64,000 nt of DNA from Antedon bifida (taxonomy: Eukaryota; Echinodermata; Crinoidea; Comatulida; Antedonidae), in the NCBI GenBank assembly GCA_963402885.1, contig OY727096.1, forward strand, positions 18,891,820 through 18,955,819, written 5' to 3'. The stretch's first letter is position 1; each line of letters opens with the position of its first letter. A program made the translations under genes and the position numbers. Below, in pieces: positions 34,757-57,079 of this stretch. The notes beneath the pieces were generated by a model. That model worked only from the letters and a program-made list of their open reading frames with translations, was not told the DNA's origin and did no database searches.

Positions 34757-35800
34757 TTATCTGGGGTCATAGTCCATGGGTGTACTTTGCATCTGTGTCG
34801 TTTCTTCAGCTGTGATCTCAACTGATTCCACGTCTACATCATATCTAGATTTCGCACTTGCTCTTGGTCTTAAGACAACACCTGATAATTGAGTTCTGAA
34901 GCGACTTCTACCACGCTCAGAAGTGGATCCTCCTGAAACTCCTCGGAAGGTCTGTCCATCAGTTTCCATTACTTCGGTCTGGATGTCTGCATAAGCCTGT
35001 GTTTCTCCAGACACAGCACTGTTGCCGTCAGTAACTCCCCCACTATTGCCGTATGTTGTTGAACCATAGTTACTGCTGGCTGAATAGCTGGTGAAATCAT
35101 GGGTTATACTACTACTCTGAATATCTTGGACGCCAGATGTGCCTTCTTGGTCTCTGTAACCTACTGATTTATATGTTAAAAATGGACTACTTTGCTGGCC
35201 TACCTCGTTAATGACAATATTTTCACCACCGCCAGTTGGGTATTCATATTGTGTTGAAGTTTGTTCGGTCGACCAGCCTGCATTGTACCCGTCTCTACTG
35301 GCTTCTTGTTGCCCAGTATTCTGTTGATACGTTGTACTACTGGTTTGGTCATCAAATTCATTAGTTTGTGTAATATATAAACCTTCAGTCACCTCACCTT
35401 CAGCCCCTTCAATTGTCTCTATAGTATTGATAACATAAGACAGTTCACTGTCAATTTCTCCATCTTCCTCCTTTACTATAGGCTGGCTACAATGTTCGCA
35501 ATGATGATCTTTTTGTCCTTCGTCTGTTGTAGTTGTAATTGTTTCATACCCGTACTGTTGAGAAACATCTGTAATTCTTCCATCAGATGTAGTAGTAGTA
35601 TATTCTGGATATTCAACACGTTTTTCATCAGCCCACGTTCTAGTATCACCGATCGTGAGATCACCAGTTGTACCACTATTCATTGTTGTAGTTGTCTCTA
35701 TGTATCCATGTCTTCTTGCCACATCATCGTCTCTATTTTCTACAACGTAGCTTATTATCTCATCAGGTTTTCGAACAATTGGCTCTATGATTGCTCGTCT
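34757..35800 (-). CDS. C-terminal Ser/Gly/Thr-rich end of the giant tail
   Basis: About 345 residues after array 2. It contains SELSYVINTIETIEG, which echoes DISYVIKTIEKIEE just before array 2. It also has the lone Cys pair HCEHC and long stretches rich in Ser, Tyr, Gly and Gln (for example SYSASSNYGSTTYGNSGGV). The final segment is basic then acidic and ends in TAA at 34759-34757. It is probably disordered. Confidence 0.8.
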   Translation of the reverse strand, partial: RRAIIEPIVRKPDEIISYVVENRDDDVARRHGYIETTTTMNSGTTGDLTIGDTRTWADEKRVEYPEYTTTTSDGRITDVSQQYGYETITTTTDEGQKDHHCEHCSQPIVKEEDGEIDSELSYVINTIETIEGAEGEVTEGLYITQTNEFDDQTSSTTYQQNTGQQEASRDGYNAGWSTEQTSTQYEYPTGGGENIVINEVGQQSSPFLTYKSVGYRDQEGTSGVQDIQSSSITHDFTSYSASSNYGSTTYGNSGGVTDGNSAVSGETQAYADIQTEVMETDGQTFRGVSGGSTSERGRSRFRTQLSGVVLRPRASAKSRYDVDVESVEITAEETTQMQSTPMDYDPR

Positions 35801-38800: not shown

Positions 38801-41800
38801 GGTTCTTTCATCAGTAGTAGTGGTTGTAGTTGTTTCTATGATATCTTGTTGTCTTGGTCTTTGAGGGGATTCTTCACGCCTCTCTACTACATAGGTTCTT
38901 ATCTTTTCACTACTTGGTCTTTTTACAGCAGGTTCTCTTGTTCTTTGATCAGTAGTAGTGGTAGTAGTTGTTTCTATGATTTCTTGTTGTCTTGGTCTTT
39001 GAGGTGACTCTTCACGTCTTTCAACTACATATTTCCTATCACCATACCCTTGTACAACAGGTTTTCGTGTTCTTTCGTCTGTAGTAGTGGTAGTAGTTGT
39101 TTCTATGATTTCTTGTTGTTTTGGTCTTTGTGGTGACTCTTCACGCCTCTCTACTACATAGGTTCTTATCTTTTCACTACTTGGTCTTTTTACAGCAGGT
39201 TCTCTTGTTCTTTGATCGGTAGTAGTGGTAGTAGTTGTTTCTATGATTTCTTGTTGTCTTGGTCTTTGAGGTGACTCTTCACGTCTTTCAACAACATATT
39301 TCCTATCACCATACCTTTGTATAACAGGTTCTCGTGTTCTTTCATCAGTAGTAGTGGTTGTAGTAGTTGTTTCTATGATATCTTGTTGTCTTGGTCTTTG
39401 AGGGGATTCTTCACGCCTCTCTACTACATAGGTTCTTATCTTTTCACTACTTGGTCTTTTTACAGCAGGTTCTCTTGTTATTTCATCTGTAGTAGTGGTA
39501 GTAGTTGTTTCTATGATTTCTTGTTGTCTTGGTTTTTGAGGTGACTCTTTACGTCTTTCAACAATATATTTCCTATCATCATACCTTTGTACAACAGGTT
39601 CTCGTGTTATTTCATCAGTAGTGGTTGTAGTTGATTCTATGATTTCTTGTTGTCTTGGTCTTTGAGGTGACTCTTCACGTCTTTCAACTACATATTTCCT
39701 ATCACCATACCTTTGTACAACAGGTTCTCGTATTCTTTCATCAGTAGTAGTGGTTGTAGTAATTGTTTCTATGATATCTTGTCTTGGTCTTTGAGGGGAT
39801 TCTTCACGCCTCTCTACTACATAGGTTCTTATCTTTTCACTACTTGGTCTTTTTACAGCAGGTTCTCGTGTCCTTTCGTCTGTAGTAGTGGTTGTAGAAG
39901 TTCCTATGATTTCTTGTTGTCTTGGTCTTTGCGGTGATTCTTCGCGTCTTTCAACAACATATTTCCTATCACCATACCTTTGTACAACAGGTTCTCGTGT
40001 TCTTTCATCAGTAGTAGTGGTAGTAGTTGTTTCCATGATATCTTGTCTTGGTCTTTGAGGTGACTCTTCACGTCTTTCAACTACATATTTCCTATCACCA
40101 TATCTTTGTACAACAGGTTCTCGTGTTCTTTCATCAGTAGTAGTGGTAGTAGTTGTTTCCATGATATCTTGTCTTGGTCTTTGAGGTGACTCTTCACGTC
40201 TTTCAACTACATATTTCCTATCACCATATCTTTGTACAACAGGTTCTCGTGTTCTTTCATCAGTAGTAGTGGTAGTAGTTATTTCTATAATATCTTGTCT
40301 TGGTCTTTGAGGTGACTCACCATCAACTATTTGTTCGTCTTTAAACTCAATTCGTTCAGATTCTTCGATTTTCTCAATAGTTTTAATTACGTATGAAATA
40401 TCAGTGTCTGTGCTGCTTTCATCATCTACAGGTGATTTAATTTTTTGGCTTAAAGGTATTTCAATTGTTTGAGAAGGCATTTTGGTATTACCTTCGCTGG
40501 CTATTAGTGCACTCTCAAGTTCATTTCGATCGGAAGTTGACATCACTATTGAATAAGTATTCTTACTTTCGTATTTCAGTAAGTGGACTGTTTCTGGAGT
40601 CCCATCCCATCTTACCACAATAGCCTCTATATAATCTTCATTTATGGGATAGGGATCAATATACCATGGTCCTTCTTGATATCGTTTCATGTACTTTATA
40701 TCATACCTATCATCTCCTGCATGCGGAATGATTAGTTTTATTTGATCAATATCGTACATATATTTTGCAGCAGGGTCATCATTTTCTACAATTTTAATAG
40801 GACGCTTTCTTATTTTATCTTTTCCTACTTGAACTAAAAACTCATCTAATTGTTCTTTACGATATGTGTATCCAGTCTCTTTCATTTTCTCTCCTTCTTC
40901 ATAATACTTTACTGGTTGTTTTATTGATAGTCTGCGATATGTTGCTGTATCTCTGTCATAACTGAATACGAATGGCTGACTGACTACAAGGCTGCCATCA
41001 ACATTCACTATATAAGCCTCAAATGGTCTGTCAAGTGGAATAGCTTTCAAACCACTTGCTTCGTCAAAATGTCTTTCAAGGGTTGTTAATTTATCACCAA
41101 CATCTAAAATCATGAACTTAAGTTTTTTGCTGTCAAACTTACTAAGATTTTTTAGTTGTGAGCTTCGCTCATTTATTTTTATATCTCTTAGTTTATCTAC
41201 AATGTCTGTTCCTTGTATGGCAATAATACCTGTCTTTGTCGTCGTCCCCCGTTCAGAAATAATTTCTAAAATTTCCTTGTCAAGTTTGTCAAGTTCTTGT
41301 AAAACATTCCTTTGTGTTAACTCATTCTCTTGAAGAATATTTTCTGGTTCTAAAAGTATCTTGTCGAGTGCTCTTTGTAGTGGAACAACATCTTTCTTCA
41401 CAATTTGTGGTTCCAGTTGCAGCTCTTCTATTTCAGAAATTCCATCAATTTCACTGGTGAATGGTTGAGTTGTATCTGAGAATCTTTTAGTGTATTCCAA
41501 TCTCGTAAGACTGTCTCTGCGATCATTTCTTTTAGGAAAATACTGGGATTTGAATGGATGGTCAATACTACCAAACTCGGTTTTAGAATCGCGCTTCGTT
41601 CTGACATCAGAATATTTTTCATCTATTGTGTTTTTTCCAGTAAAGTGGCTATCTACTGGTTTTGTTGAACGTCTTTGCTTTTCAGGTGACCTTGTTCGTC
41701 TTATGTCTTCGGGTTCTCTTCTATCATCTTCAGTAATGACATAATCAGTTGTTGTAACAGTTGTTTCGTAACTGCCTCTAGTTATTTCTTGTTCATCTGA

Positions 41801-44800
41801 TCTACCTGGACGTCCATCTGTTGGTTGAATCGGACGCCTTTGCTTTTCAGGTGACCTTGTTCTTCTTATGTATTCGGGTTCTCTTCTGCCATCTTCAGTT
41901 ACGACATAATCAGTTGTTTCGTAAGCATCTCTAATTGTGTCTTGTTCATCTGGTCTACCTGGACGTCTTTCTGTTGGTTGAGTTTGACGTCTTTGCTTTT
42001 CAGGAGACCTTGTTCGCCTTGTGTCTTCGGGTTCTCGTCTGTCATCTTCAGTAAAAACATAATCCTCTTTTGTTGTTGTAACAGTTGTTTCATAAACATC
42101 TCTAATTGTGTCTTGTTCATCTGGTCTACCAGGACGTCTTTCTGTTGGTTGAGTTGGACGCCTTTGTTTTTCAGGTGACCTTCTTCGTCTTGAGCCTTCA
42201 GGTTCTCGTCTGTCATCTTCAGTTATGACATAGTCAGTTGTTGTAACAGTTGTTTCGTAAACATCTCTAATTGTGTCTTGTTCATCTGGTCTACCTGGAC
42301 GTCTTTCTTTTGGTTGAATTAGACGTCGTTGTTTTTCAGGTGACCTTGTTCGTCTTATTGCTTCGGGTTCTTTTCTGTCACCTTTAGTAATGATATAATC
42401 CTCTTCTGTTCTTGTAACAGTTGTTTCGTAAACATCTCTAATTAAGTCTTGTTCATCTGGTCTACCAGGACGTCTTTCTGTTGGACGTCTTCGCCTTTCA
42501 GGTGACCTTGTTCGTCTTGTGTCTTCAGGTTCTCGTCTGTCATCTTCAGTAATAACATAATCCTCTTTTGTTGTTGTAACAGTTGTTTCATAAACATCTC
42601 TAATTGTGTCTTGTTCATCTGGTCTACCAGGACGTCTTTCTGTTGGTTGAGTTGGACGCCTTTGCCTTTCAGGTGACCTTGTTCGTCTTATGTATTCAGG
42701 TTGTCTTCTGTCATCTTCAGTTATGACATAATCAGTTGTGACAGTTTTTTCAAAAACATCTCTGGTTATGTCTTGTTCATCTGGTCTACCTGGACGTCTA
42801 TCTGTTGGTTGAATCGGACGCCTCTGCTTTTCAGGTGACCTTGTTCGTCTTGTGTCTTCGGGTTCTTGTATGTCATCTTCAGTTATGACATAGTCAGTTG
42901 TTGAAACAGTTGTTTCGTAAACATCTATAATTGTGTCTTGTTCATCTGGTCTACCTGGACGTCTTTCTTTTGGTTGAATTGGACGTCTTTGTTTTTCAGG
43001 TGACCTTGTTCGTCTTCTGTATTCAGGTTGTCTTTTGTCATCTTCAGTTATGACATAATCAGTTGTAACAGTTGTTTCATAAACATCTCTGGTTATGTCT
43101 TGTTCATCTGGTCTACCTGGACGTCTACTCGTTGGTTGAATCGGACGCCTCTGCTTTTCAGGTGACCTTGTTGGTCTTGTGTCTTCGGGTTCGTGTATGT
43201 CATCTTCAGTTATGACATAGTCAGTTGTTGTAACAGTTGTTTCGTAAACATCTCTAATTGTGTCTTGTTCATCTGGTCTACCTGGACGTCTTTCTTTTGG
43301 TTGAATTAGACGTCTTTGTTTTTCAGGTGACCTTGTTCGTCTTATTGCATCGGGTTCTTTTCTGTCACCTTTAGTAATGATATAATCCTCTTCTGTTCTT
43401 GTAACAGTTGTTTCGTAAACATCTCTAATTAAGTCTTGTTCATCTGGTCTACCAGGACGTCTTTCTGTTGGACGTCTTCGCCTTTCAGGTGACCTTGTTC
43501 GCCTTGTGTCTTCAGGTTCTCGTCTGTCATCTTCAGTAATAACATAATCCTCTTTTGTTGTTGTAACAGTTGTTTCATAAACATCTCTAATAGTGTCTTG
43601 TTCATCTGGTCTACCAGGACGTCTTTCTGTTGGTTGAGTTGGACGCCTTTGCTTTTCAGGTGACCTTGTTCGTCTTATGTATTCAGGTTGTCTTCGGTCA
43701 TCTTCAGTTATGACATAATCAGTTGTTGTAACAGTTGTTTCATAAACATCTCTGGTTATGTCTTGTTCATCTGGTCTACCTGGACGTCTATCTGTTGGTT
43801 GAATCGGACGCCTCTGCTTTTCAGGTGACCTTGTTCGTCTTGTGTCTTCGGGTTCTTGTATGTCATCTTCAGTTATGACATAATCAGTTGTTGAAACAGT
43901 TGTTTCGTAAACATCTCTAATTGTGTCTTGTTCATCTGGTCTACCTGGACGTCTTTCTTTTGGTTGAATTGGACGTCTTTGGTTTTCTGGTGACCTTGTT
44001 CGTCTTATTGCTTCGGGTTCTTTTCTGTCACCTTTAGTAATGATATAATCCTCTTCTGTTCTTGTAACAGTTGTTTCGTAAACATCTCTAATTATGTCTT
44101 GTTCATCTGGTCTACCAGGACGCCTTTCTGTTGGACGTCGTTGCCTTTCAGGTGACCTTGTTCGTCTTATGTCTTCAGGTTCTCTTCTGCCATCTTCAGT
44201 AATGATATAATCAGTTGTTGTTGTAACAGTTGTTTCGTAAACATCTCTAATTGTGTCTTGTTCATCTGGTCTACCTGGACGTCTATCTTCTGGTTGAATT
44301 GGACGTCTTTTGCTTTCAGGTGACCTTGTTCGCCTTGTGTTTTCAGGTTCTCGTCTGTCATCTTCAGTTATGACATAATCAGTTGTTGTTACAGTTTTTT
44401 CGTAAACATCTCTAATTGTGTCTTGTTCATCTGGTCTACCAGGACGTCTTTCTGTTGGTTGAATTGGACGCCTTTGCTTTTCAGGTGACCTTGTTCGTCT
44501 TGTGTCTTCGGGTTCTCGTCTGTCATCTTCAGTTATGACATAATCAGTTGTTGTTACAGTTGTTTCATAAACATCTCTAATTGTGTCTTGTTCATCTGGT
44601 CTACCAGGACGTCTTTCTGTTGGTTGAATTGGACGCCTTTGCTTTTCGGGTGACCTTCTTCGTCTTGTGTCTTCGGGTTCTTGTCTGTCATCTTCAGTAA
44701 TGACATAATCAGTTGTTGTAACAGTTGTTTCATAAACATCTCTAATTGTGTCTTGTTTATCTGGTCTACCAGGACTTCTATCTGTTGGTTGAGTTAGATG

Positions 44801-47800
44801 CCTTTGCTTTTCTGGTGACCTTGTTCGTCTTATGTATTCAGGTTGTCTTCTGTCATCTTCAGTTATGACATAATCAGTTGTGACAGTTTTTTCAAAAACA
44901 TCTCTAGTTATGTCGTGTTCATCTGGTCTACCAGGACGTCTTTCTGTTGGTTGAATCGGACTCTTTTGCTTTTCAGGTGACCTTGTTCGTCTTATGGCTT
45001 CGAGTTCTTTTCTGTCATCTTTTGTAATGATAAAATCCTCTTCTGTTCTTGTTGTAACAGTTGTTCCGTAAACATCTTTAATTGTGTCTTGTTCATCTGG
45101 TCTACCTGGACGTCTTTCTGTTGGTTGAATTAGACGTCTTTGCTTTTCAGGTGACCTTGTTCGTCTTATGTCTTCAGGTTCTCTTCTGTCACCTTTAGTA
45201 ATGATATAATCCTCTTCTGTTCTTGTTGTAACAGTTGTTTCGTAAACATCTCTAATTGTGTCTTGTTCATCTGGTCTACCTGGACGTCTTTCTGTTGGTT
45301 GAATTGGAAGTCTTTGCTTTTCAGGTGACCATGTTCGTCTTATGTCTTCAGGTTCTCTTCTGTCATCTCCAGTTATGACATAGTCAGTTGTTGTAACAGT
45401 TGTTTCGTAAACATCTTTAATTGTGTCTTGTTCATCTGGTCTACCTGGACGTCTTTCTGTTGGTTGAATTGGACGTCTTTGCTTTTCAGGTGACCTTGTT
45501 CGTCTTATGTCTTCAGGTTCTCTTCTGTCACCTTTAGTAATGATATAATCCTCTTCTGTTCTTGTTGTAACAGTTGTTTCGTAAACATCTCTAATTGTGT
45601 CTTGTTCATCTGGTCTACCTGGACGTCTTTCTGTTGGCTGAATTGGACGTCTTTGCTTTTCAGGTGACCTTGTTCGTCTTATGTCTTCAGGTTCTCTTCT
45701 GTCACCTTTAGTAATGATATAATCCTCTTCTGTTCTTGTTGTAACAGTTGTTTCGTAAACATCTCTAATTGTGTCTTGTTCATCTGGTCTACCTGGACGT
45801 CTTTCTGTTGGTTGAATTGGACGTCTTTGCTTTTCAGGTGACCTTGTTCGTCTTATGGCTTCGGGTTCTTTTCTGTCATCTTCAGTTATGACATAGTCAG
45901 TTGTTGTAACAGTTGTTTCGTAAACATCTTTAGTTGTGTCTTGTTCATCTGGTCTACCTGGACGTCTTTCTGTTGGTTGAATTGGACGTCTTTGCTTTTC
46001 AGGTGACCTTGTTCGTCTTATGTCTTCAGGTTCTCTTCTGTCACCTTTAGTAATGATATAATCTTCTTCTGTTCTTGTTGTAACAGTTGTTTCGTAAACA
46101 TCTCTAATTGTGTCTTGTTCATCTGGTCTACCTGGACGTCTTTCTGTTGGTTGAATTGGACGTCTTTGCTTTTCAGGTGACCTTGTTCGTCTTATGGCTT
46201 CGGGTTCTTTTCTGTCATCTTCAGTTATGACATAGTCAGTTGTTGTAACAGTTGTTTCGTAAACATCTTTAGTTGTGTCTTGTTCATCTGGTCTACCTGG
46301 ACGTCTTTCTGTTGGTTGAATTGGACGTCTTTGCTTTTCAGGTGACCTTGTTCGTCTTATGTCTTCAGGTTCTCTTCTGTCACCTTTAGTAATGATATAA
46401 TCCTCTTCTGTTCTTGTTGTAACAGTTGTTTCGTAAACATCTCTAATTGTGTCTTGTTCATCTGGTCTAACTGGACGTCTTTCTGTTGGCTGAATTGGAC
46501 GTCTTTGCTTTTCAGGTGACCTTGTTCGTCTTATGTCTTCAGGTTCTCTTCTGTCACCTTTAGTAATGATATAATCCTCTTCTGTTCTTGTTGTAACAGT
46601 TGTTTCGTAAACATCTCTAATTGTGTCTTGTTCATCTGGTCTACCTGGACGTCTTTCTGTTGGTTGAATTGGACGTCTTTGCTTTTCAGGTGACCTTGTT
46701 CGTCTTATATCTTCAGGTTCTCTTCTGTCACCTTTAGTAATGATATAATCCTCTTCTGTTTTTGTTGTAACAGTTGTTTCGTAAACATCTCTAATTGTGT
46801 CTTGTTCATCTGGTCTACCTGGACGTCTTTCTGTTGGTTGAATTGGACGTCTTTGCTTTTCAGGTGACCTTGTTCGTCTTATGGCTTCGGGTTCTCTTCT
46901 GCCATCTTCAGTTATGACATAGTCAGTTGTTGTAACAGTTGTTTCGTAAACATCTCTGGTTATGCCTTGTTCATCTGGTCTACCTAGACGTCTTTCTGCT
47001 GGTTGAGTTTGACGTCTTTGTTTTTTAGGTGACCTTGTTCGGCTTATGTCTTCAGGTTCTCTTCTGTCATCTTCAGTTATGACATAGTCAGTTGTTGTAA
47101 CAGTTGTTTCGTAAACATCTTTAGTTGTGTCTTGTTCATCTGGTCTACCAGGACGCCTTTCTGTTGGACGTCTTTGCTTTTCAGGTGACCTTGTTTGTCT
47201 TATACGTTCTATTTGGTCATCTTCATTAATGATATAATCCTCTTCTGTTCTTGTTACAGATGTTTTATAAACGTCTCTAATATTTTGATCTTTTGGTCTA
47301 ATCGGATGCCTTTCTATTGGTTGTGTTGGACGTCTTTGTTGCTCAGGTGACCTCGTTCGTCTGATTTCTGGTTCTCTTCGGTTATTGTCACTAGTATCGT
47401 GCAAGTGACGTCTTACACCAGGAGATCTTGTTTGCTGTATTTCTTGTTTTTCTTGGATAATTGTAGTTTCATGTTTATCTGGCATGGTTTGCCTCCTCTC
47501 TGTTTCTACAAGTTGTTGTGGATAATCAACCATTTCAATAATGGAATCGTCTTCAATTCTTGTGGTAATAGTTGTCTCCTGAATATCCTTTGTTGATTCT
47601 TTATTTTTTCCATGAAATTTCTGCTTCTGATAATCTGTTATTTTTTTTCCTAAACTGGTACTGCTATGGATCAATGCCTTGCTTTTATCCTTTAGGGAAC
47701 CTGTCAATCTCTTTAATGATCTACGTTTTGAAGATGGTTCAACTTCCATGGGTACATCAGAGATTCTATCCTTATGGTATATACCTGTAATATATTCTTC

Positions 47801-48172
47801 TTCAATATCAATTACTTCATCGTTTGGCTTGCCTTCTTCCAAAATCTGAAGTGTTATGTCTTCACGAAAGACCTTCTCACGCGCTTTACCATCCCGCTTA
47901 CCAACGTCACTAGTTCTTTGTTGATAGTGTTCTTGTTGCGCAGAACCTTCAGTAAAGAATACTTTAGTATCAGAAGTTTCTTTTCTATACTTTTTCCTGC
48001 TTGGTTTTTCCATCGGCTGTTGTATGGGACTTTCTGTCACAATGTATCCTTCATTATAATGGCTTTGTTTGTAATCTGAACTGTGAGGCATCAAAATATC
48101 TTCATCATAATAAGCACCTGGTAGAGACTGGCCATGAATAGATGGCTCCACTCGGGCTTGTACCTGTTTTGT
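34757..48172 (-). CDS. Single 13.4-kb terminal exon encoding the giant repetitive tail
   Basis: An uninterrupted frame of 4,471 codons follows a TTTGTAG acceptor. It is joined in phase 0 to the TM7 exon (donor AGG|GTGAGT at 48420). Tail layout from its start: ~275 residues of mixed charged sequence; array 1, about 35 units; a transition and a ~350-residue non-repetitive block; array 2, about 34 units; and a ~345-residue Ser/Gly/Thr/Gln-rich C-terminus ending MDYDPR. The only cysteines I find are in HHCEHCSQP near 35490. Absence of stops over 13 kb of repeat strongly implies translation. The many plus-strand frames inside are mirror images of the repeats. Confidence 0.9.
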   Translation of the reverse strand, partial: TKQVQARVEPSIHGQSLPGAYYDEDILMPHSSDYKQSHYNEGYIVTESPIQQPMEKPSRKKYRKETSDTKVFFTEGSAQQEHYQQRTSDVGKRDGKAREKVFREDITLQILEEGKPNDEVIDIEEEYITGIYHKDRISDVPMEVEPSSKRRSLKRLTGSLKDKSKALIHSSTSLGKKITDYQKQKFHGKNKESTKDIQETTITTRIEDDSIIEMVDYPQQLVETERRQTMPDKHETTIIQEKQEIQQTRSPGVRRHLHDTSDNNRREPEIRRTRSPEQQRRPTQPIERHPIRPKDQNIRDVYKTSVTRTEEDYIINEDDQIERIRQTRSPEKQRRPTERRPGRPDEQDTTKDVYETTVTTTDYVITEDDRREPEDISRTRSPKKQRRQTQPAERRLGRPDEQGITRDVYETTVTTTDYVITEDGRREPEAIRRTRSPEKQRRPIQPTERRPGRPDEQDTIRDVYETTVTTKTEEDYIITKGDRREPEDIRRTRSPEKQRRPIQPTERRPGRPDEQDTIRDVYETTVTTRTEEDYIITKGDRREPEDIRRTRSPEKQRRPIQPTERRPVRPDEQDTIRDVYETTVTTRTEEDYIITKGDRREPEDIRRTRSPEKQRRPIQPTERRPGRPDEQDTTKDVYETTVTTTDYVITEDDRKEPEAIRRTRSPEKQRRPIQPTERRPGRPDEQDTIRDVYETTVTTRTEEDYIITKGDRREPEDIRRTRSPEKQRRPIQPTERRPGRPDEQDTTKDVYETTVTTTDYVITEDDRKEPEAIRRTRSPEKQRRPIQPTERRPGRPDEQDTIRDVYETTVTTRTEEDYIITKGDRREPEDIRRTRSPEKQRRPIQPTERRPGRPDEQDTIRDVYETTVTTRTEEDYIITKGDRREPEDIRRTRSPEKQRRPIQPTERRPGRPDEQDTIKDVYETTVTTTDYVITGDDRREPEDIRRTWSPEKQRLPIQPTERRPGRPDEQDTIRDVYETTVTTRTEEDYIITKGDRREPEDIRRTRSPEKQRRLIQPTERRPGRPDEQDTIKDVYGTTVTTRTEEDFIITKDDRKELEAIRRTRSPEKQKSPIQPTERRPGRPDEHDITRDVFEKTVTTDYVITEDDRRQPEYIRRTRSPEKQRHLTQPTDRSPGRPDKQDTIRDVYETTVTTTDYVITEDDRQEPEDTRRRRSPEKQRRPIQPTERRPGRPDEQDTIRDVYETTVTTTDYVITEDDRREPEDTRRTRSPEKQRRPIQPTERRPGRPDEQDTIRDVYEKTVTTTDYVITEDDRREPENTRRTRSPESKRRPIQPEDRRPGRPDEQDTIRDVYETTVTTTTDYIITEDGRREPEDIRRTRSPERQRRPTERRPGRPDEQDIIRDVYETTVTRTEEDYIITKGDRKEPEAIRRTRSPENQRRPIQPKERRPGRPDEQDTIRDVYETTVSTTDYVITEDDIQEPEDTRRTRSPEKQRRPIQPTDRRPGRPDEQDITRDVYETTVTTTDYVITEDDRRQPEYIRRTRSPEKQRRPTQPTERRPGRPDEQDTIRDVYETTVTTTKEDYVITEDDRREPEDTRRTRSPERRRRPTERRPGRPDEQDLIRDVYETTVTRTEEDYIITKGDRKEPDAIRRTRSPEKQRRLIQPKERRPGRPDEQDTIRDVYETTVTTTDYVITEDDIHEPEDTRPTRSPEKQRRPIQPTSRRPGRPDEQDITRDVYETTVTTDYVITEDDKRQPEYRRRTRSPEKQRRPIQPKERRPGRPDEQDTIIDVYETTVSTTDYVITEDDIQEPEDTRRTRSPEKQRRPIQPTDRRPGRPDEQDITRDVFEKTVTTDYVITEDDRRQPEYIRRTRSPERQRRPTQPTERRPGRPDEQDTIRDVYETTVTTTKEDYVITEDDRREPEDTRRTRSPERRRRPTERRPGRPDEQDLIRDVYETTVTRTEEDYIITKGDRKEPEAIRRTRSPEKQRRLIQPKERRPGRPDEQDTIRDVYETTVTTTDYVITEDDRREPEGSRRRRSPEKQRRPTQPTERRPGRPDEQDTIRDVYETTVTTTKEDYVFTEDDRREPEDTRRTRSPEKQRRQTQPTERRPGRPDEQDTIRDAYETTDYVVTEDGRREPEYIRRTRSPEKQRRPIQPTDGRPGRSDEQEITRGSYETTVTTTDYVITEDDRREPEDIRRTRSPEKQRRSTKPVDSHFTGKNTIDEKYSDVRTKRDSKTEFGSIDHPFKSQYFPKRNDRRDSLTRLEYTKRFSDTTQPFTSEIDGISEIEELQLEPQIVKKDVVPLQRALDKILLEPENILQENELTQRNVLQELDKLDKEILEIISERGTTTKTGIIAIQGTDIVDKLRDIKINERSSQLKNLSKFDSKKLKFMILDVGDKLTTLERHFDEASGLKAIPLDRPFEAYIVNVDGSLVVSQPFVFSYDRDTATYRRLSIKQPVKYYEEGEKMKETGYTYRKEQLDEFLVQVGKDKIRKRPIKIVENDDPAAKYMYDIDQIKLIIPHAGDDRYDIKYMKRYQEGPWYIDPYPINEDYIEAIVVRWDGTPETVHLLKYESKNTYSIVMSTSDRNELESALIASEGNTKMPSQTIEIPLSQKIKSPVDDESSTDTDISYVIKTIEKIEESERIEFKDEQIVDGESPQRPRQDIIEITTTTTTDERTREPVVQRYGDRKYVVERREESPQRPRQDIMETTTTTTTDERTREPVVQRYGDRKYVVERREESPQRPRQDIMETTTTTTTDERTREPVVQRYGDRKYVVERREESPQRPRQQEIIGTSTTTTTDERTREPAVKRPSSEKIRTYVVERREESPQRPRQDIIETITTTTTTDERIREPVVQRYGDRKYVVERREESPQRPRQQEIIESTTTTTDEITREPVVQRYDDRKYIVERRKESPQKPRQQEIIETTTTTTTDEITREPAVKRPSSEKIRTYVVERREESPQRPRQQDIIETTTTTTTTDERTREPVIQRYGDRKYVVERREESPQRPRQQEIIETTTTTTTDQRTREPAVKRPSSEKIRTYVVERREESPQRPKQQEIIETTTTTTTDERTRKPVVQGYGDRKYVVERREESPQRPRQQEIIETTTTTTTDQRTREPAVKRPSSEKIRTYVVERREESPQRPRQQDIIETTTTTTTDERTREPVIQGYGDRKYIVEKREESPQRQQDIIETTTTTTTTDERTREPVVQRPSSEKIRTYVVERREESPQRPRQQDIMETTTTTTNDEKTREPVVQRPSSENIRTYVVERREESPQRPRQQEILETTTTTTTTDERTREPVIQRYGDRKYVVERREESPQRPRQQEIIETTTTTTTDERTREPVVQRPSNEKIRTYVVERREESPQRPRQQEIIETTTTTTTTDERTREPVVQRYGDRKYVVERREESPQRPRQQEIIETTTTTTTTDERTREPVIQRYGDRKYVVERREESPQRPRQQEIIETTTTTSTTDERTREPVVQRPSSENIRTYVVERREESPQRPRQQEILETTTTTTTTDERTREPVIQRYGDRKYVVERREESPQRPRQQEIIETTTTTTTDERTREPVVQRLSSENIRTYVVERREESPQRPRQQEILETTTTTTTDERTREPVVQRPSSEKIRTYVVERREESPQRPRQQEIIEATTTTTTDERTREPVVPMYGDRKYVVERREESPQRPRQDIIETTTTTTTDEITREPAVQRYGDRKSVVERHEESSQRPRQDIIETTTTTTTTDERTREPVVQRYGDRKYVVERREESPQRPRQQEIIETTTTTTTTDERTREPVIQRYGDRKYVVERREESPQRPRQQEILETTTTTTTDERTREPVVQRPSSEKIRTYVVERREESPQRPRQQEILETTTTTTTDERTREPVVQRPSSEKIRTYVVERREESPQRPRQQEIIETTTTTTTDERTREPVVPMYGDRKYVVERREESPQRPRQDIIETTTTTTTDEITREPAVQRYGDRKSVVERHEESSQRPRQDIIETTTTTTTTDERTREPVVQRYGDRKYVVERREESPQRPRQQEILETTTTTTTGERTREPVVQRLSSENIRTYVVERREESPQRPRQQEIIETTTTTTTDERTREPVVQMYDYETRKYVVGRREESPQRPRQEIIETTTTTTTDERTREPYDKETRSYIADRREESPRRQRRAIIEPIVRKPDEIISYVVENRDDDVARRHGYIETTTTMNSGTTGDLTIGDTRTWADEKRVEYPEYTTTTSDGRITDVSQQYGYETITTTTDEGQKDHHCEHCSQPIVKEEDGEIDSELSYVINTIETIEGAEGEVTEGLYITQTNEFDDQTSSTTYQQNTGQQEASRDGYNAGWSTEQTSTQYEYPTGGGENIVINEVGQQSSPFLTYKSVGYRDQEGTSGVQDIQSSSITHDFTSYSASSNYGSTTYGNSGGVTDGNSAVSGETQAYADIQTEVMETDGQTFRGVSGGSTSERGRSRFRTQLSGVVLRPRASAKSRYDVDVESVEITAEETTQMQSTPMDYDPR

Positions 48173-51100
48173 CTACAAATATAATATTCACTCTTATTGA
48201 ATTTAAAAGTTTATATTACAGACCTAAATTCGTAAAAACTTGATTCGTATAGATGTATACGAATGTGTATCACTAGCGATCTGGACTATCGGACACTTTT
48301 GCTTACTATATCCGGATGCCTATGATTGTAATGACATCGTACCCATAACCCAACTCATTTGAGTTTGCGTAGACGCGCGGCTAGTAGGAACTAATCTTAA
48401 CAAGACGTTAAATACTCACCCTCTTTGACAATCTGTTAATGCACAATAAGAGGACAAAGCCAATTGTTCCATTCAGAATGACAAACACATATTGTAGATC
48501 TATGTTCTTGATTCCAAACACCCCAATGAACCACGTAGCACTTATGTATATTAGGAGAAAGGTGAACAGCCCAATTTTTAACCTAAACAAAAATTATAAT
48601 TTAAATGTTTAATAGTTTTATTCAGATAGCACTGATAAAAAATATCCTATTAGTTAATTATTTCTGAAATATGGATATTACAGCTAATGAAATATACCTT
48701 GTTCGTTTTTGTCGCCTGTACCGTTCTTGCTGTTTGATCAAATGCATAGAGCTGGCACTACAACTTTGAACAATTAAAACCAACAGCATCAGCAATGATA
48801 TCTAAAATACAATACAATCACATGTTTATATTTAAATATGTATGGAATGGTTACTGAGAACTCGAATGCACCTAATTACACAACTACATATCCATTAAAA
48901 ATTCACATCACACACTACTGTTGCTACTGATGAATAGGACACTATACCATTTTTTCAACATAGTTGTGTAATTCATTAATGATTTACAACGTTTGAACCG
49001 AGTTAGGACATATGTTAGTACGATAGCTATGATTATCTTGTTCTAATGAAAGCTTTGAATATTTACCGCAATAAAGAAAATGATTGGTCCAACCATACTC
49101 CATATAGCTTCAGTGTCTGGATCTGGCCATGATCTGTGTGATAATGGTAGACATTTATTCATGAAGTTATGTCATGTAAGGTGGTAAACAATGATATAAG
49201 TTATACTTTTGAATGATGTTTGTTTAGATTATATTCACGATAATGCAAGCTTAGTTTGAAAAACAGAATTCTTTATGAACCAAGAGCCAAGGATTGGTAG
49301 GTAAGCATGATAACTACAAAATTCCACTTTTCTCGCATACCTGTATTCTGGTGAAGCATATTCGTCCCACAGCAGCCCGGCACTCAGTCCAGAAATCAAT
49401 ATTGGCATTCCCCAACCAAACGACTGGTAGAAACAATTGAAGTTCTGTGCTCGGCAAGATGCGAATTTCTCTTTGATGAAGAGGTCGAAAATCATTAAGA
49501 ACAACCAGACGAAAACGGACGTTAGTGAGAAGTGAATCGATAACGCCATCGTGTTTGTAAGCTCCTGTAATAAAAGATTACAAGATTTACCAATCTACTT
49601 CGTATTACCTCTTCAGTCATACGAACTGTAACGAAATATCACTTACAAAATATGTGTTTAAATCAGCACCCGTATCTGCCAATAGTGCAACATTCGCCAG
49701 TAGTAAAGCAATTGACAGATTTCGAATGAGGCTCTTTTCTGGAAGATGTTTCATTCTCCTGTAAATTGTAAGACAATTGTAGTAATATTACATAAATAAA
49801 ATTAAACAATGAACTAGTTATGTAAATAGGTCTTTATAAGTGAATAATCGATGATGGCACATCTGATATATTTAGCCTGAAGTCAAATTTTACTAAGATT
49901 AAACACAAGTCCCAATGGCTATAGGTTTTACTACTTTCTCCTGTCCAATCAACTATAAAAATGATATTCTTTTGTAAGCATAATTACTTCATTATGGCAG
50001 TTCCGAAGATGATCAGCAGTAGAATTAAAATTGACAACACTGTGGCTAAGCAAGTAACTATCAACAGTGCTTCTGGATAGTAAATCTGTAATAGAGAAGA
50101 TTTTACGGAGATGAGCATTATTTCAAGTCAGTTTCAGTAACTTCTGATAATGCATGTTGTAGTTTATGCATCTTTTTCGGGTTATGCTTAGAGACAGTGT
50201 CTCAATGTAGTACAGTACGTCTTTATCAAAACTTATGAGGAGGCCAACCCATTTATATTACAATATTTGCATCGTGAACACAGTCAGTGTTGATGGACTG
50301 AACTGCAGCAGTATTTGCAATTTTCATTGTACGTACCAGTGACGAAATATCCATTAGGAGTGCGAATGAAGTCCCTTCGTGGCAAGAGCATGATACGCCA
50401 TTTTTCCTGGAATCACTTGCGAAGGTCTTGCATCCATCCGGAGAAAAGGAACTGTTGACCAAAGCAATTATTATATCTTTATAAATAAAGTACAAGCTTT
50501 TTTTTTAACATTTTGCATCAGCAACAAGTTGCTGAGTACGAACAAGTATGCATTACGTTTTTTTTAAAAGTAGCTTTAAAAAATGTTCACTTTATTAAAG
50601 AAAGAAAATTGATATAGTTCAATTCTTACAGTGAAGTTCTATCAATGTATGTGCACACAGGCTTGCTTGTTCCTCTTGTACGGTAACCATTTCTCTTCCA
50701 GCGTATCTAAAAATAAAGGTTCATTATGATAAAGAACATAAATTACAATGTTGATTCAATACAAGGCGAGGAGACAAATCTCCCCCTCCTACTTCAATCT
50801 GCTGCTGTGTAGGCCTAATCTTTAAGGTCATGTTTTGAACAAACTTGGTAAAAAGACATTACCTCATCTGAAGGAAAATGTATAAAGGTGTTTCCATTAG
50901 CGACTGCGTCTTCATTTACATTGTAGGTGACAATGGATACAAGTCTGCTTGCAAGAAAGTAGACCATTTCTTCTTCTTTGTTAGCTCTAAGAAGAAAAAA
51001 AAATAGTACCGTACTAGTTAATTTAAATGATTTCAATTCGGTGAATGGAAGTTTGTATCAATGTAGAACACTTTCATTTCGGACATTCAATCGGTAATAA

Positions 51101-54100
51101 ATAGGAAAAAAGATACTTCATTAGGTAGCCTATATTGAATCCAGTATGAGAATGGTATGGTTCTTTCATTGCACAACAAGCTACACACATTTTGTCCATG
51201 ATGAACATCATACAGTTTCAGTGGGGTTCAGCCCACCGAAATAAACCAAAATGGAAAACAGGTAAGCCTATTATGTTTAACATAAACTATTGACTATACG
51301 TTATGTTAGGTTACGAATATAATGTAACCGATTTCCACATTGTGACAGTTCTATATAATATATTGATTTCTTTGTATAAAGATTGTGACATGCCTGCAAC
51401 TGCTTTAGGATTTTTAGAGGGAATTGCACAAACAAACCATTCGTTCAAGTTACTTATTCAATGGAGTTTGGGGTGAGTTATTTGTTGTTATCCTTTTTTT
51501 TCATTTTAAAATCCATGTTTGACAACAACAACAACAGCACAAACCTTTGTATTAACGTATTGTCATACGAATTGTTCCATAATAGCGATACACTACATGT
51601 CTCTCCTTGAAAAAAGAACAAGAACAACGTGTTATTACATACAGGTTTTGAACATTTTAGATAGGTCTATAATTTACTATTGGTAATCTTTGACATGAAA
51701 AAATAGAGAGCTACATTGGGGGTTTTCTTTAGATATATGGCACGCCAATACGTTTGATCGTATTAAGCGTTCCATTACAAATTTTAAAATGATATTGTAC
51801 AATTACCTTGAGATGAGTAGGGTGATATGGAATACAAAATCGATGAGCTTGAATGAATATTTACGTCAGTATGTGAACCACGTGATTTTGACAGTGTACC
51901 AACTAAAGCAAAAACCAATACAAGAACAAACAAATTATAACCACAGTACTGTAATGTTTGTGTCCCGATTTCACAATGTGGAGTAATTGCTGATTACTTC
52001 TCAGTGATTGAAAGCTAAAGTAGTAAAGTCTAAAACTTTGTGAGACAAAAATATGTATGGACATAATGATGTCATATCACTACCATATTTGTCACATCAG
52101 ACGTTTGTTGGCAAACTAGTTTGATAGTGTGGATAGAGCTTAATACTCACCAGCTTCATCATTGTATACGAGTGGCTCTCGTTCATCAAGACCTAACGTC
52201 TTGCACTGTGGTGCAAATTCTGCTGTTGCTTTCTCATTAGTTGCCATAAAACGTTGCAACAGAGAATCTGTTTGTGTAAAACAAATTGTAAAAGTTAATG
52301 ATAGTAATGGAGCGAAGTGTACTAACCACTTGACTATAGCAACTGTGTTAATGTAATGATTTGATGTATACTTTACATGTAAACCCGTCGGTACTAGAAA
52401 TCGTATTTACATTTCATTTAAACAAGGATATATCGTCTAAATAATAAATTCAAATTAAACACGATAAAGTTACCTGTCTTGGTCGGCATTGCTTGAAATG
52501 CTCCCATCAATGAAACTGCAAAAAATAAAAAGAAAACAAATTAAAACCCAATTGTTGATTGATTGGCAGTTAACGTTTGATCCAGGCATCCCAGTTAACG
52601 TCTGATCCAGGCATCCCAGTTAACGTCTGATCCAGGCATCCCAGTTAACGTCTGATCCAGGCATCCCAGTTAACGTCTGATCCAGGCATCCCAGTTAACG
52701 TCTGATCCAGGCATCCCAGTTTAATCCAGATGGTTCCCCCTATTATGTCTCTTCAAGTCTAGTATTGCTCATGGTGTTGATTCAACTTTCTCAGACAACT
52801 TTCTTTCTTGATGTTGTTGTTACTGTACTTTGTTTTTTCCCAGCTTAAGTGTACCATATATACCAACATTTTTACCAATGTTAGACCGTTTCGACTAGAC
52901 TAGTCTTGTTATATCGTTTGTATACTTACCGATCTTTATTTTGCGAGGATCATTGAAAACAGCTTCTCCAATATCTTGTATTTGAAGATTGTTTCGATTT
53001 ATCCGAATAAGACGGTCACTGTCACCTGTGATTACGAACAGGTACTCTCCAATGGCGGCAACATCTTGAGTGTTGTTCAGACCAGGATAGGAGGAAGAGT
53101 CCAAAACCGTATTCTTGCTATCGCCTGATAGGTCACTTTCCATCACATGATTAGATGTTCCGTCAGTCCAGTAGATACCATTACCTTAAACAACAATATA
53201 TAGACCGTGGTTTTGAATGTGGTTGTTCAGGAACTGATCGGGGAAGAAAACTTGGGTACTCAAGGGATCCTAAGAAAAATAGTAGACCTATTGACCTATG
53301 ATAATGATACATACCGTCTGATGAGATGGCTAGGCCTGTTGGGGAAATTTCCTCAGCAAGAGTTTTCCTTTGTTTTCCACTCGTCTTGACAGCGCGCTCT
53401 ATCTTTTTTGCCTCCATGGAACTAAAATAGACAAAGCTACGAGACAAGAAAACAAAACAGTTCTTTTTGAGAAACTTATTTAAATAGGCCTATAGATCAA
53501 TTTTATATTTAAATAATGTTTAAAGGCTCGGGTGTGTTTTGTGACTTTAGCTCAAGCTTTTCGGAGGTTACTAAATACTTATTAAGGGCATACATAATTG
53601 TTTCCATTGATATATGAACTTATGTATTGGTGACAGTAAAGAAAGAAGATTGGACAACAATTAGAAGACAGCAATTATTTAACAAATCATTTTGTTACGT
53701 TCTTTCCCTAAATACAAAAAAAACAATTACCGTTTATTAATTTCAACATCGTCAATTTCAAAATTTTGATTTTTAACCACGGTAACTCGTCCAGTTCCAT
53801 CCAGATTGGATCGTTCTATTTCTGTATTTTTGTTATTGTTAACATCAAAAAACAACCTCCTGTTGACCAAGTCAAGTGCAAGTGAAGAGGCATCTGGAAT
53901 TTGAATTGTTGATAGTAGAGGCCATTAAAAGGGGGAAATTTCTAGTTTAATATATATTAACTACGGTAAATACAGTAGATATACAGAAACACTCCTGCAA
54001 CCATGCGTCCCCTTCATAAGTATCAGAGTATTAGTTGTGTATATTCACTCGTTTTTGCCACTGGAAATTGAGCGCATAACTTAGGACCAAACAAGTTCAT

Positions 54101-57079
54101 ATATATAGTTTCTATTTGTAAATAATATAAATAATGTCTAGTGACAGTAAATACATTTCAGCTCTAATAAACGATGACGTAATATTCAAACTTATGCCAT
54201 ACACTATCGAACTATAATACCAGCAGAATTTCATAGAATAAACAAAAACGTAAATGATGATACTATTGAAGTTTTTTTCGATTTAATAATTAATTTGAGA
54301 AGTCACTCATAAAGATAAGTTTCGTAAGATACATTACGAGATAAATGAAAACACAAAGTTGCCGAGCTTGAAAAACAGCATTGGTTACACCAACATCAAC
54401 AAGATGTTTTATTAATGAAGATAAATCATATTTGAGAGCAAGAAGAGGGAAGAAGGAAATGAAAGAATCAATGTATAAAATGAGAAGAAAGAAAGAAACT
54501 TACCAACATTTCTCACTATCACGTGGCGGTGCGTACCATCCAAATACGCCCTTTCGATTACCTTTTTACTCCGATCAGACCAATAAACAACGCTGTCTAC
54601 GGGATCAAATGCGATTCCTGAGACACCGTATGTAGGCCTAATGCCTATTGGTAGCACAGAAAAAGACACATTGGTATCGTGCTCATCTTCCAAGTACGCA
54701 TGCTCAATAACACCATTCTGGTAGTCACTTATGAGAACTATGTAACCTAAATAAAAGCAAAAGCTTGAAAATTAGCCAGATGGTCATCTAATTACTTGTC
54801 ATGTACCTGAAAACCCGACATTTGAAATAATGTACTTAAAATGTATAGAACAGTAACTTAATTGAAATTAAAATGTTTACGAAAATGCAAATAATTTTTT
54901 CAAGCTACAATAATATACAGCGTGAAGATTTATTTTAAATGATCAGTTTTTAATGGAATAATTTATGACAAACGAAAACAATTATCTCACGCTCTCCTGA
55001 AAGTGTTACTAAACAATATAATTATAATTCTTATTTTTGAGAGAAGACCATGAAGTACTAATGCTATGACCGAAATTTGTATAACAATGTATCCTTTTCT
55101 TGTTTGCCATCCGTTCTTTGAGATGTCGTCTGCAATTGGATTGCAGTCCACAAGAGTCGTCTTTTACCTGGTCCAATGCTTGTAGGTTTTGTAGGTACTG
55201 CTAAAATCGGCATCTCCGACTCCACTCTTTCGGAATTGTTTCTCCGTGTATCCACTCCACTTTCTTCATGGATGTTTAAGCTGTGTTCCGTTGTTCCTGG
55301 TGTCACAGTTTCTACCGAATAATGAGTATAGTTGTTGGTTGTCTCCTCTTTCCACGAACCTCCTAATGTACTCTCTTCAGTATGAGTGTTAGATGTGTGT
55401 CTTGTGTCTTCGTTTGAAACTACAGTTCCAATGTTGTGTAAATTTATTTTAACATATGATGTCGTGTCTTTTACTACTGAACCGGAAGGTCCGCTTCCCG
55501 CCACAACTGGTGCAGCCGTCATCATCACGTGTACATCTTCGTCTTGCTTGTGTTCATCATCAATGTGGAAATGAACGTTCTCTCCAGATCCTGAAGTTCC
55601 AAATACTGCCGCCGCTGTTTTTAGAATTTATAAATGTGAAAATATTATGTATGTGTTTAATCTTCGTTAAAGTGTTCATAAAATCCGAAATAAAGATAAA
55701 TTGAAACAACATTAAAAAACTAATTAATGAACTAAATGCTAGTTTATATTGACATTTTGTGAATATTAAGTAATTTGTGATTTTGTAATAATTCTGTAAA
55801 CGCACCTCATCGGTAGATGTCGTTACTCGCAGCTTTTAGTTACTGTAGCCTGTCTACACAGGCAGAATGCATCAGACGTCTGATTATTTACATTAAGTAT
55901 GTTATTATTTAACGTTTATTTAATTATTATTCATCAAAATTATTATTATTATTATAAATAACTAAAATTGAATGAAGAAAAGTAATGAAGGCTACCATTG
56001 ATTTTGTGTTTGGTTATAATTAATTGAGACATTATAGGCCTACCTTTTCCTAGATGTTCGTCTGTTTCTAGTAAAGCTGAAAGAAAAAAATAAAATGATA
56101 AATAATTCCATTTGTATACAGTATAATCCTTCTAGTAGCACAGCCCTACTCAGAGAACAGTTTGGCAAGTCCCGAATGGGTCCTCTTAAATGTATGTGTA
56201 TGTTTAGAACGAGCATGAACCAGTGACTTGTCACTTGTCTTCCTTAGGCGGATCTGCAATAACTTGTTTACTTGATATAACATATCTATCGTGACGAATC
56301 CAATAAAATAGGCCTATTGAAATAAACGTAATGAAGGTTTTAGCCTACATACTGCCTTTATACTGTATTTTGCATGCATACAAAAGATCCCCTAGATCGT
56401 ATTTTTTGATCATTGACGGTTTTGAATTATTACTTTCTCAATTTATTTTTGTATTGATTTTTTGATGATATACTGTAGGTATACTATAAAATATTTCAGA
56501 TCTGTTGTTTGTAAGCTATAACAAATGTTTATGACGCTGTATTATTGTTTATTAAATATGAAGATATACCGATCAATCTGAGGATTAGCCGCCTCTTGTT
56601 GATAATTAATAATATAGGCCTGTTTGTTTATTAAATAATAGTCATCATTATAGGCTAATTACTTCTACACAAAATAATTAGTTTCCATTGGTGTCCTAAT
56701 ATAACTTATTATTTCTTATAATGCATGTATTGCAATGTTTTTAAAGAGTAATAGTATAAAGTCAAATAACTATTGAAATGAATTATAATAATTATAATAT
56801 ATAATAATAATTAGAAAAAGTGCGGAAATCCAATAACTTCACTTACTTAAAATACGTGTGAAAACACAGTCGTGGAGGATATATTTTATATAGGCCGCGG
56901 TGCCTAATAGTGAAAGTGGAAAGGAAATTCACTGAGAGAACTTATAGGCCTACTAAGAAAAAGAAGAACAAGTTGTTTTAATATAGTTTATAAATAAATG
57001 TTATCTTACCTGTAGCAACGAAACTGTTAACAAAAAAAAATAAAAATAACCACCTCGCGTGTGATTCAAAATATAACAT
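34757..57079 (-). CDS. Adhesion-GPCR-like receptor with YWTD repeats, GPS motif, 7TM and a ~4,471-residue tail
   Basis: Exons in order: 57079-57010, 56076-56044, 55614-55168, 54746-54504, 53893-53731, 53421-53315, 53184-52930, 52515-52474, 52267-52151, 51605-51557, 50986-50863, 50706-50630, 50451-50337, 50085-49988, 49758-49647, 49564-49341, 49133-49067, 48801-48698, 48582-48420, 48172-34757. Every junction is GT-AG and phase holds, giving 5,341 residues. Order: signal peptide (1-23), Ser/Thr-rich segment to ~183, YWTD-type repeats ~184-440, a short GAIN-like region with GPS ~455-612, seven helices ~614-870, cytoplasmic tail 871-5341. GPS plus a family-B-type bundle identifies the class; the ligand is unknown. 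I know no named family with this tail. The chain to the giant exon rests on phase and splice-site quality, so a transcript would settle it. Confidence 0.82.
35800..40325 (-). repeat. Coding tandem array 2, ~130-140-bp unit (43-47 residues), about 34 copies
   Basis: The consensus unit is VVERREESPQRPRQQEIIE, then a run of 5-8 Thr, then DERTREPVVQ, then either RYGDRKY or RPSSEKIRTY. The two variants often alternate, giving a two-unit higher-order period. Each unit has one Ser-Pro. The sequence is unrelated to array 1 apart from a shared charged, Pro/Thr-rich style. Confidence 0.92.
40330..41640 (-). CDS. Non-repetitive block between the two coding arrays
   Basis: About 430 codons, without repeats for roughly the middle 350. 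Pieces include KFMILDVGDKLTTLERHFDE, FEAYIVNVDGSLVVSQPFVF, IKLIIPHAGDDRYDIKYMKR and YIEAIVVRWDGTPETVHLLK. Regular hydrophobic/polar alternation and aromatic residues suggest folded beta-rich structure, unlike the rest of the tail. The two xxxWDG/NVDG strand pairs hint at a duplicated fold. I do not recognise the domain. Confidence 0.7.
41640..47370 (-). repeat. Coding tandem array 1, ~165-174-bp unit (55-58 residues), about 35 copies
   Basis: The consensus unit is RTRSPEKQRRPIQPTERRPG, then RPDEQDTIRDVYETTVTT, then a hinge, then REPEDIR. The hinge has two versions: RTEEDYIITKGDR and TDYVITEDDR. Each unit pairs a strongly basic, proline-rich half with an acidic Thr/Tyr half, and carries one Arg-Ser-Pro. 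The copy number comes from counting the RSPE codons and may be off by one or two. Confidence 0.92.
48420..50085 (-). CDS. Seven-transmembrane region of the giant receptor
   Basis: Six exons carry seven hydrophobic helices: TM1 LLIVTCLATVLSILILLLII; TM2 LIRNLSIALLLANVALL; TM3 LTSVFVWLFLMIFDLFI; TM4 SFGWGMPILISGLSAGLLW; TM5 IWSMVGPIIFFIA continuing LLMLLVLIV across the intron; TM6 FTFLLIYISATWFIGVFG; TM7 VFVILNGTIGFVLLLCI. The GWGMP, IW..VGP and NG..GF motifs are characteristic of adhesion/family-B receptors. The Cys pair normally linking TM3 to extracellular loop 2 is absent. Confidence 0.88.
50337..50706 (-). CDS. GPS motif exons
   Basis: Exons 50706-50630 and 50451-50337. The motif is C-TYID...DGC...GVSCSCHEGTSFALLMD. 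All four conserved GPS cysteines and the SFALLMD beta-strand are present. The autocleavage tripeptide, usually His-Leu-Thr/Ser, reads Glu-Gly-Thr here, and the usual tryptophans are missing. Helix 1 follows at once in the next exon. Confidence 0.85.
52025..52141. mobile_element. TIR-family element, shortened
   Basis: Contains ATGTATGGACATAATGATGTC, CACTACCATATTTG and the right end CAAACTAGTTTGATAGTGTGGATAGAGCTT. The left end is degraded. It abuts the donor side of the exon ending at 52151, separated by about 10 bp. Confidence 0.8.
52568..52717. repeat. Minisatellite, 25-bp unit, six nearly identical copies
   Basis: The unit is AGTTAACGTCTGATCCAGG followed by CATCCC. Only the first copy differs (GTTTGA for GTCTGA). 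It lies in the intron between the YWTD exon (53184-52930) and the 52515-52474 exon of the giant receptor. There are no spacers, so it is not a CRISPR array. Confidence 0.95.
52930..54746 (-). CDS. YWTD / LDL-receptor class B-like repeat exons
   Basis: Exons 54746-54504, 53893-53731, 53421-53315 and 53184-52930. Repeats read as GIAFDPVDSVVYWSD...IERAYLDGT, LALDLVNRRLFFDV...IERSNLDGT, and GNGIYWTDGTSNHVMESDLS. Their spacing fits LDL-receptor class B repeats, which form six-bladed beta-propellers. About 257 residues are present, roughly the length of one propeller, though some blades are hard to see. Likely a protein-binding ectodomain. Confidence 0.78.
55168..55614 (-). CDS. Ser/Thr/His-rich N-terminal exon of the giant receptor
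   Basis: 149 codons of low-complexity ectodomain, with many Thr, Ser, Glu and His (for example VHFHIDDEHKQDEDVHV) and several Asn-X-Thr sites. There are no cysteines. It looks like a glycosylated stalk ahead of the propeller repeats. The open frame continues past the donor to 55064, but the next exon is in phase with the GTAAAA donor at 55167. Confidence 0.7.
55615..57009. other. First introns of the giant receptor gene
   Basis: AT-rich introns around the tiny 33-bp exon 56076-56044. I see no repeats of note, no RNA gene and no further exon in phase. Confidence 0.5.
57010..57079 (-). CDS. Signal-peptide exon of the giant receptor
   Basis: Encodes MLYFESHARWLFLFFFVNSF and then VAT: a short N-region, a strong Phe/Leu core and a small-residue end, as in a secretory signal peptide. 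The donor is CAG|GTAAGA. This ATG was chosen because it is the only nearby start giving a signal peptide in phase with the next exon (56076-56044). Confidence 0.75.

Follow-up and report, generated by a model that had tools for sequence, protein, structure and literature searches.

Gene Structure and Genomic Context

The window analysed here is a 64,000-nucleotide stretch of the Antedon bifida genome (assembly GCA_963402885.1, contig OY727096.1, positions 18,891,820 to 18,955,819). On its minus strand, from 57079 to 34757, lies a gene of 21 coding exons, 20 of them short and one of 13,416 bp. An earlier, sequence-only reading had proposed a chain of 20 phase-compatible exons leading into a single 13.4-kb exon, and our independent rebuild of the gene bears this out: GT..AG borders are found at 20 of 20 introns, the phases are compatible, and a single terminal stop closes a protein of 5,382 aa. 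The only open reading frame of at least 200 aa in the window (34757-48151, minus strand; 4,464 aa from a GTG) falls in the giant exon, whose remaining two sense frames contain 221 and 560 stops; the open frame is thus not there by chance.

The exons, all on the minus strand, can be assigned to successive parts of a receptor. Exon 1 (57010..57079) supplies the start codon and a hydrophobic, signal-peptide-like N-terminus (hydrophobic at 8-28), with a similar start in the Antedon mediterranea protein described below (P0002). In the gene model, exon 2 (56044..56076) is extracellular and exon 3 (55168..55614; 447 bp, phase 1-1) encodes a Thr/Ser-rich extracellular stalk of 149 aa. The latter is missing from the A. 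mediterranea isoform X2 and is therefore probably a cassette exon. Exons 4-8 (52474..54746) contain a YWTD (LDL-receptor class B) region of ~255 aa, recognized by Pfam Ldl_recept_b and DUF5050; this is the length of one six-bladed YWTD propeller. A GAIN-like region, identified by eye, and a degenerate GPS follow in exons 9-14 (50337..52267), and the seven-helix domain of secretin/adhesion type occupies exons 15-20 (48420..50085). Intron 20 (48173..48419, 247 bp) leads from the TM7 exon to the giant tail exon, exon 21 (34757..48172), with 4,471 aa and the stop. The tail had been put at over five times the length of the rest of the receptor, which holds with exon 3 skipped (4471/762 = 5.9), while the full model gives slightly less (4471/911 = 4.9).

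Several other features were observed in the window. Intron 7 of the receptor gene harbors a 25-bp minisatellite (52567-52721; 6.2 copies, 99% match), and just 3' of the stop codon a tRNA-like, SINE-like stretch was noticed by eye (34409-34678, minus strand), with no ARAGORN call; over the whole window neither ARAGORN nor Rfam found anything. On the opposite strand, C2-domain gene fragments extend over 13803-30824 (plus strand), with Pfam C2 just under its cut-off in two of the four pieces; they look UNC13/BAIAP3-like. A G-rich, strand-asymmetric array with a 26-bp unit was also observed (14979-15624; GC skew 0.53 in 14001-16000). Two small cysteine-rich repeats (CNNRCQQF..., CSNRCLDF...) lie at 60392-61307 (plus strand) and have no Pfam match at E 0.1.

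The Receptor Part

The receptor part yields six Pfam rows. 7tm_2 (E 6.5e-17; residues 662-900, profile positions 4-249 of 250) is the sole 7TM family among them, with no class C 7TM family, and DUF5050 (5.8e-9) and Ldl_recept_b (2.3e-6), also above the cut-off, define a long N-terminal region with adhesion-type domains. Below the cut-off are GPS, SGL and a chance-level TMEM192. A phmmer comparison against solved chains places ADGRD1 closest (8e-14); rows 1-20 of 29 are adhesion receptors and the remaining nine are secretin-type. A hydropathy scan with 19-residue segments recovers the N-terminal segment and six more between residues 654 and 909, with TM4 under the threshold. The signal peptide, YWTD repeats and seven helices of the sequence-only reading thus stand, the first as a signal-peptide-like start. 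The same scan finds no hydrophobic 19-mer past residue 909 of the window protein, or past 780 of the A. mediterranea protein, and so the tail should be cytoplasmic.

The GPS that had also been claimed is here a putative one. All four of its Cys are kept and the Pfam profile is covered in full (positions 1-45 of 45), but the score of 19.1 bits stays under the cut-off of 22.5 and the motif is degenerate. Against the consensus CNHLTNFAVLM it reads CHEGTSFALLM, with a Stachel-like stretch kept. Aligned by eye (C-H-E-G-T-S-F), it has Glu at the His position, and the HL-T/S self-cleavage tripeptide is absent. This tripeptide is common in adhesion GPCRs, without being required of all. Given the missing His of the cleavage motif, we infer no self-cleavage, and the receptor probably stays uncleaved at the GPS.

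With the adhesion GPCRs, of which ADGRD1, ADGRL2/L3 and ADGRE5 are the closest solved, the crinoid protein shares a secretin/adhesion 7TM, a GPS-like motif before TM1, the Stachel-like TSFALLM and a modular ectodomain. It differs from them in its YWTD ectodomain, in the His-less GPS under the Pfam cut-off and in the length of its cytoplasmic tail, 4,471 aa as against a few hundred residues in known adhesion GPCRs. The tail of the window protein ends in ...MDYDPR, presumably not a PDZ-binding end. The C-termini of many adhesion GPCRs bind PDZ scaffolds, a possible link to the cytoskeleton (PMC13197933).

Crinoid Relatives and the Receptor-Tail Junction

Residues 2164-2620 of the window protein (P0001) were compared with ~5.8 billion predicted proteins, candidates being those of 2,455-7,812 aa. 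Two matches were found among 3,754 candidates. P0002, from A. mediterranea (Antedonidae), has 6,206 aa and is annotated as "uncharacterized protein", "isoform X2"; it lacks exon 3 and shares 921 of 939 aa (98%) with the window protein over a stretch reaching from the YWTD region past TM7 into the tail. P0003, from Anneissia japonica (Comatulidae), has 2,640 aa and is annotated as "titin-like", while Ig and FN3 domains are absent from its Pfam rows, which are two, both at chance level and below the cut-off. This kind of sequence is thus already in databases, under the names "uncharacterized protein" and "titin-like". The first residues of P0003 fall, by eye, within TM5, and the comparison covers TM5 onward: identity is 36% over 224 aa, from TM5-6 through TM7 into the start of the tail. 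Taken separately, TM6-7 (2e-15) and the tail start (6e-13) each match P0003, which indicates that homology covers both sides of the junction and that these lie next to each other there as well. Both relatives are gene predictions, possibly sharing predictor bias; on these identities P0003 is the more independent witness of the fusion, since P0002 is very near kin of the window protein.

At the junction itself, the donor after TM7 reads AGG/GTGAGT and the acceptor ATTTGTAG/ACA, giving the joint ...CINRLSKR/TKQVQARVEPSIH... in phase 0. A matrix built from the gene's other 19 acceptors gives 48172 a score of 0.18 bits, the second lowest among the 20. Eighteen of the 73 AG sites from 48420 to 47600 outscore it, and 15 of these 18 would run into a stop within 945 aa. 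The weak acceptor raises the alternative that the giant exon forms a gene of its own or mostly remains unjoined, the receptor ending soon after TM7 and the fusion being an artefact of prediction. Such a gene could start at the Met at tail residue 28, and retention of intron 20 would end the receptor in SKRVSI-stop. However, three of the 18 better sites also keep one protein of >5,000 aa, namely 48163 (2.36 bits), 47626 (0.48) and 48016 (0.26), so the fusion does not depend on one site. The first of them, nine bases downstream of 48172 and costing three residues, could be the exact acceptor. The A. mediterranea prediction reads LSKR/TKQVQARVEPS, with the residues TKQ present as in the 48172 junction. 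The junction recurs there and, in divergent form, in A. japonica, whose alignment includes the stretch ahead of Met 28 (SIHGQ...). AATAAA and ATTAAA, looked for in intron 20 (48173..48419), were not found. With junction homology in both P0002 and P0003, we reject a separate gene despite the weak acceptor, and leave this alternative a very slight probability. An assembly artefact is likewise unlikely, since predictions under two named species share the receptor-tail plan. The proposed fusion of the receptor to the giant exon is thus supported by the sequence and by two database-predicted crinoid proteins. With one frame through all exons and the fusion recurring in predictions from two crinoid families, the support for the predicted architecture is strong.

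In wider searches, residues 505-1010 of the A. mediterranea protein, used as query against 1,812 candidates of ~3,413-10,860 aa, recovered no giant receptor beyond P0002. A 762-aa receptor query, lacking the tail and exon 3, gave 18 matches among 7,994 scored of more candidates; PF00058 is present in all 18 and PF00002 in none, and the five named matches comprise four LRP4/LRP6 and one hypothetical protein. Seed words for this query came only from its first 500 residues, that is before TM1, so the search does not exclude short-tailed 7TM relatives, and distant or differently sized relatives may escape these protein searches. The statement that no described receptor family has this plan agrees with what we found, there being no description among the papers listed by narrow open-access literature searches.

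Organization and Evolution of the Giant Tail

The tail was measured at 4,471 aa, as had been claimed, and consists mostly of repeats. It begins with a nonrepetitive juxtamembrane segment of 245 aa (47438..48172, minus strand, as are all parts of the tail), equal in length in A. mediterranea and alignable in part to A. japonica. In array 1 (41663..47437) an anchor with TRSPEK matches 34 times, at spacings of mostly 51-58 aa, and S-P-x-K/R motifs number 33. A central conserved domain with a core of 243 aa (40502..41230) separates it from array 2. The latter and its edges (35516..40399) contain 33 matches to an anchor with ESPQRPRQ...ETTTTTT, most of them spaced by 40-47 aa, and 32 S-P-x-K/R motifs. 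A unique C-terminal region with the conserved RFRTxxSGVVLRPR follows (34760..35515). The arrays had been described as highly charged and rich in Ser-Pro and Thr, and we count 65 S-P-x-K/R motifs (33 + 32), plus one in the C-terminus, in a tail with 15.4% Thr, 15.4% Arg, 13.0% Glu, two Cys and five Trp. The net charge of the arrays is near zero. In the charge-hydropathy analysis both arrays plot deep within the disordered range, and the central core falls just inside the ordered one. Between equal-length repeats dN/dS is 0.62 in array 1 (53 pairs) and 0.28 in array 2 (57 pairs); the pairs are non-independent and gene conversion may contribute, so these values support coding constraint and do not measure it.

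No Pfam family was found in the whole tail (the 4,464-aa ORF) at E 0.1, and hence no cytoskeletal-binding domain at that threshold. Attempts to identify the central domain produced several candidates that we do not retain. A match of the central region to the toxin-like ATLF (E 0.72; 10 bits vs. a cut-off of 27.4) is absent from the whole-tail scan at E 0.1 and is taken as chance, as is the best hit of a PDB sequence search, a dehalogenase (E 0.089). An internal duplication suspected by eye, with halves matching at E 0.008 in the window and E 0.22 in A. japonica, is not claimed. AlphaFold on the central domain with a three-row alignment gave a mean pLDDT of 37 and no usable fold.

The comparison with the two relatives separates constant from variable parts. 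In the window and A. mediterranea, respectively, the juxtamembrane segment has 245 and 245 aa and the central region 421 and 420 aa, while array 1 has 1,925 and 2,367 aa and array 2 1,628 and 2,099 aa (differences of 442 and 471 aa); the C-terminal segment has 252 and 313 aa. In A. japonica, identity reaches 46-48% in the best-matching part of the central domain and 35% when the wider region is taken (405 aa), and the C-terminus is 29% identical over 255 aa, with RFRTxxSGVVLRPR kept. The motif of array 2 is also kept there, with 21 S-P-x-K/R, whereas the Ser-Pro anchor has no match in its first array; only the motif of array 2 is thus conserved. In these comparisons conserved anchors (the junction, the central domain and the C-terminal motif) alternate with arrays of variable length.

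Comparable repeats occur in the tails of neurofilament-H/-M and in Drosophila Futsch/MAP1B, which contain tandem Ser-Pro repeats and are highly charged and disordered. Those proteins, unlike the crinoid one, are not membrane proteins and include no receptor, and the neurofilament-type motif is KSP as opposed to RSPEK/ESPQR. Could the tail then be a phosphorylation-tuned entropic brush or spacer, akin to neurofilament side arms and lacking a specific partner? The high charge that nets to near zero, the Ser-Pro repeats and the variable array length would all suit such a role. However, a pure spacer has no need of a conserved ordered domain between the arrays or of a conserved C-terminal motif, and we consider this unlikely. 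The S-P-x-K/R repeats also resemble SPKK motifs, which bind DNA and occur in basic tails. The tail might accordingly be cut off the receptor and act elsewhere, for example in the nucleus, where GPR158 and the cleaved DFrizzled2 tail have been reported (PMC3581496). The arrays, in contrast to SPKK tails, are near-neutral overall, and no cleavage site was noticed in the course of the other analyses; this alternative appears highly improbable.

A further comparison concerns receptors with long cytoplasmic parts. The tail of GPR179 has repeats unrelated to the crinoid ones and a length well under half of 4,471 aa, and the CPWE motif is one of its features. GPR179 and GPR158, class C orphan receptors, resemble the crinoid protein in having a long cytoplasmic tail but differ in GPCR class and ectodomain. 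Both recruit regulators (PMC3581496). By analogy, the crinoid tail might be mainly a signalling hub, gathering G-protein regulators, kinases or adaptors near the receptor, as GPR158/GPR179 do with RGS. Recruitment of RGS complexes by these receptors is described (PMC3581496, PMC6203450), and dozens of near-identical short motifs would provide multivalency. Against this, no known RGS or adaptor docking motif was identified in the tail, CPWE cannot occur often with only two Cys and five Trp, and the Ser-Pro motif is missing from the first array of A. japonica. We regard a signalling hub as possible, if on balance somewhat unlikely. Choanoflagellate GPCR-TKL/K receptors likewise combine a 7TM with an extra cytoplasmic C-terminal part, which is a kinase domain (PMC12716839), whereas no Pfam domain was found in the crinoid tail.

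The giant ankyrins offer a parallel at the level of the exon, although the ankyrin giant exon is internal in its gene. No ankyrin repeats or ZU5 domains appear in the Pfam rows of the crinoid receptor, and the tail has no family at E 0.1. In the 270/480-kDa ankyrin-G and 440-kDa ankyrin-B, as in the crinoid gene, one giant exon adds a long phosphosite-bearing segment to a membrane-linked protein; in the ankyrin segment a likely phosphorylated serine matters for beta-IV-spectrin localization (PMC5422562). Unlike the crinoid protein, the ankyrins are adaptors and not receptors, and their 7.8-kb giant exon is alternatively spliced (PMC5422562).

A Proposed Single-Chain Receptor with Its Own Tether

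The reading that we put forward, tentatively and with a probability of roughly 0.45, is that the gene encodes a single-chain crinoid adhesion GPCR whose disordered, phosphorylatable tail would act as a multivalent scaffold or cytoskeletal tether. Expression as a single transcript is inferred. The extracellular YWTD region would bind a matrix or cell-surface ligand, and the His-less GPS would hold the ectodomain covalently to the seven helices. Inside the cell, the tail would form a mostly disordered, near-neutral polyampholyte of repeats, whose 65 S-P-x-K/R sites may be phosphorylated by proline-directed kinases. The charged disordered arrays, the Ser-Pro sites and the absence of a hydrophobic segment in the tail make a scaffold or tether role plausible. 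Specific partners would dock at the ordered central domain and at the conserved C-terminus, with the arrays acting as tunable spacers of variable length. At a contour of 0.36 nm per residue, the tail amounts to about 1.6 um.

A more specific version is that the protein is a crinoid mechanoreceptor, in which the uncleaved adhesion GPCR would itself be the cytoskeletal linker and combine signalling with membrane-cytoskeleton tethering in one molecule. Force on the YWTD ectodomain would then pass covalently through the 7TM to a phosphorylation-tuned tail anchored at the central domain and C-terminus. We consider this extension speculative and rather improbable.

The receptor-tail plan is found in two feather-star families, and narrow literature searches listed no description of it; large genes annotated as "uncharacterized" or "titin-like" can thus conceal receptors. 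Adhesion receptors are regarded as sensors of adhesion and force, and by what route they reach the cytoskeleton is still open. With a cytoplasmic part about five times longer than the rest, a natural receptor of this kind would let one ask directly whether an adhesion GPCR is able to serve as its own tether.
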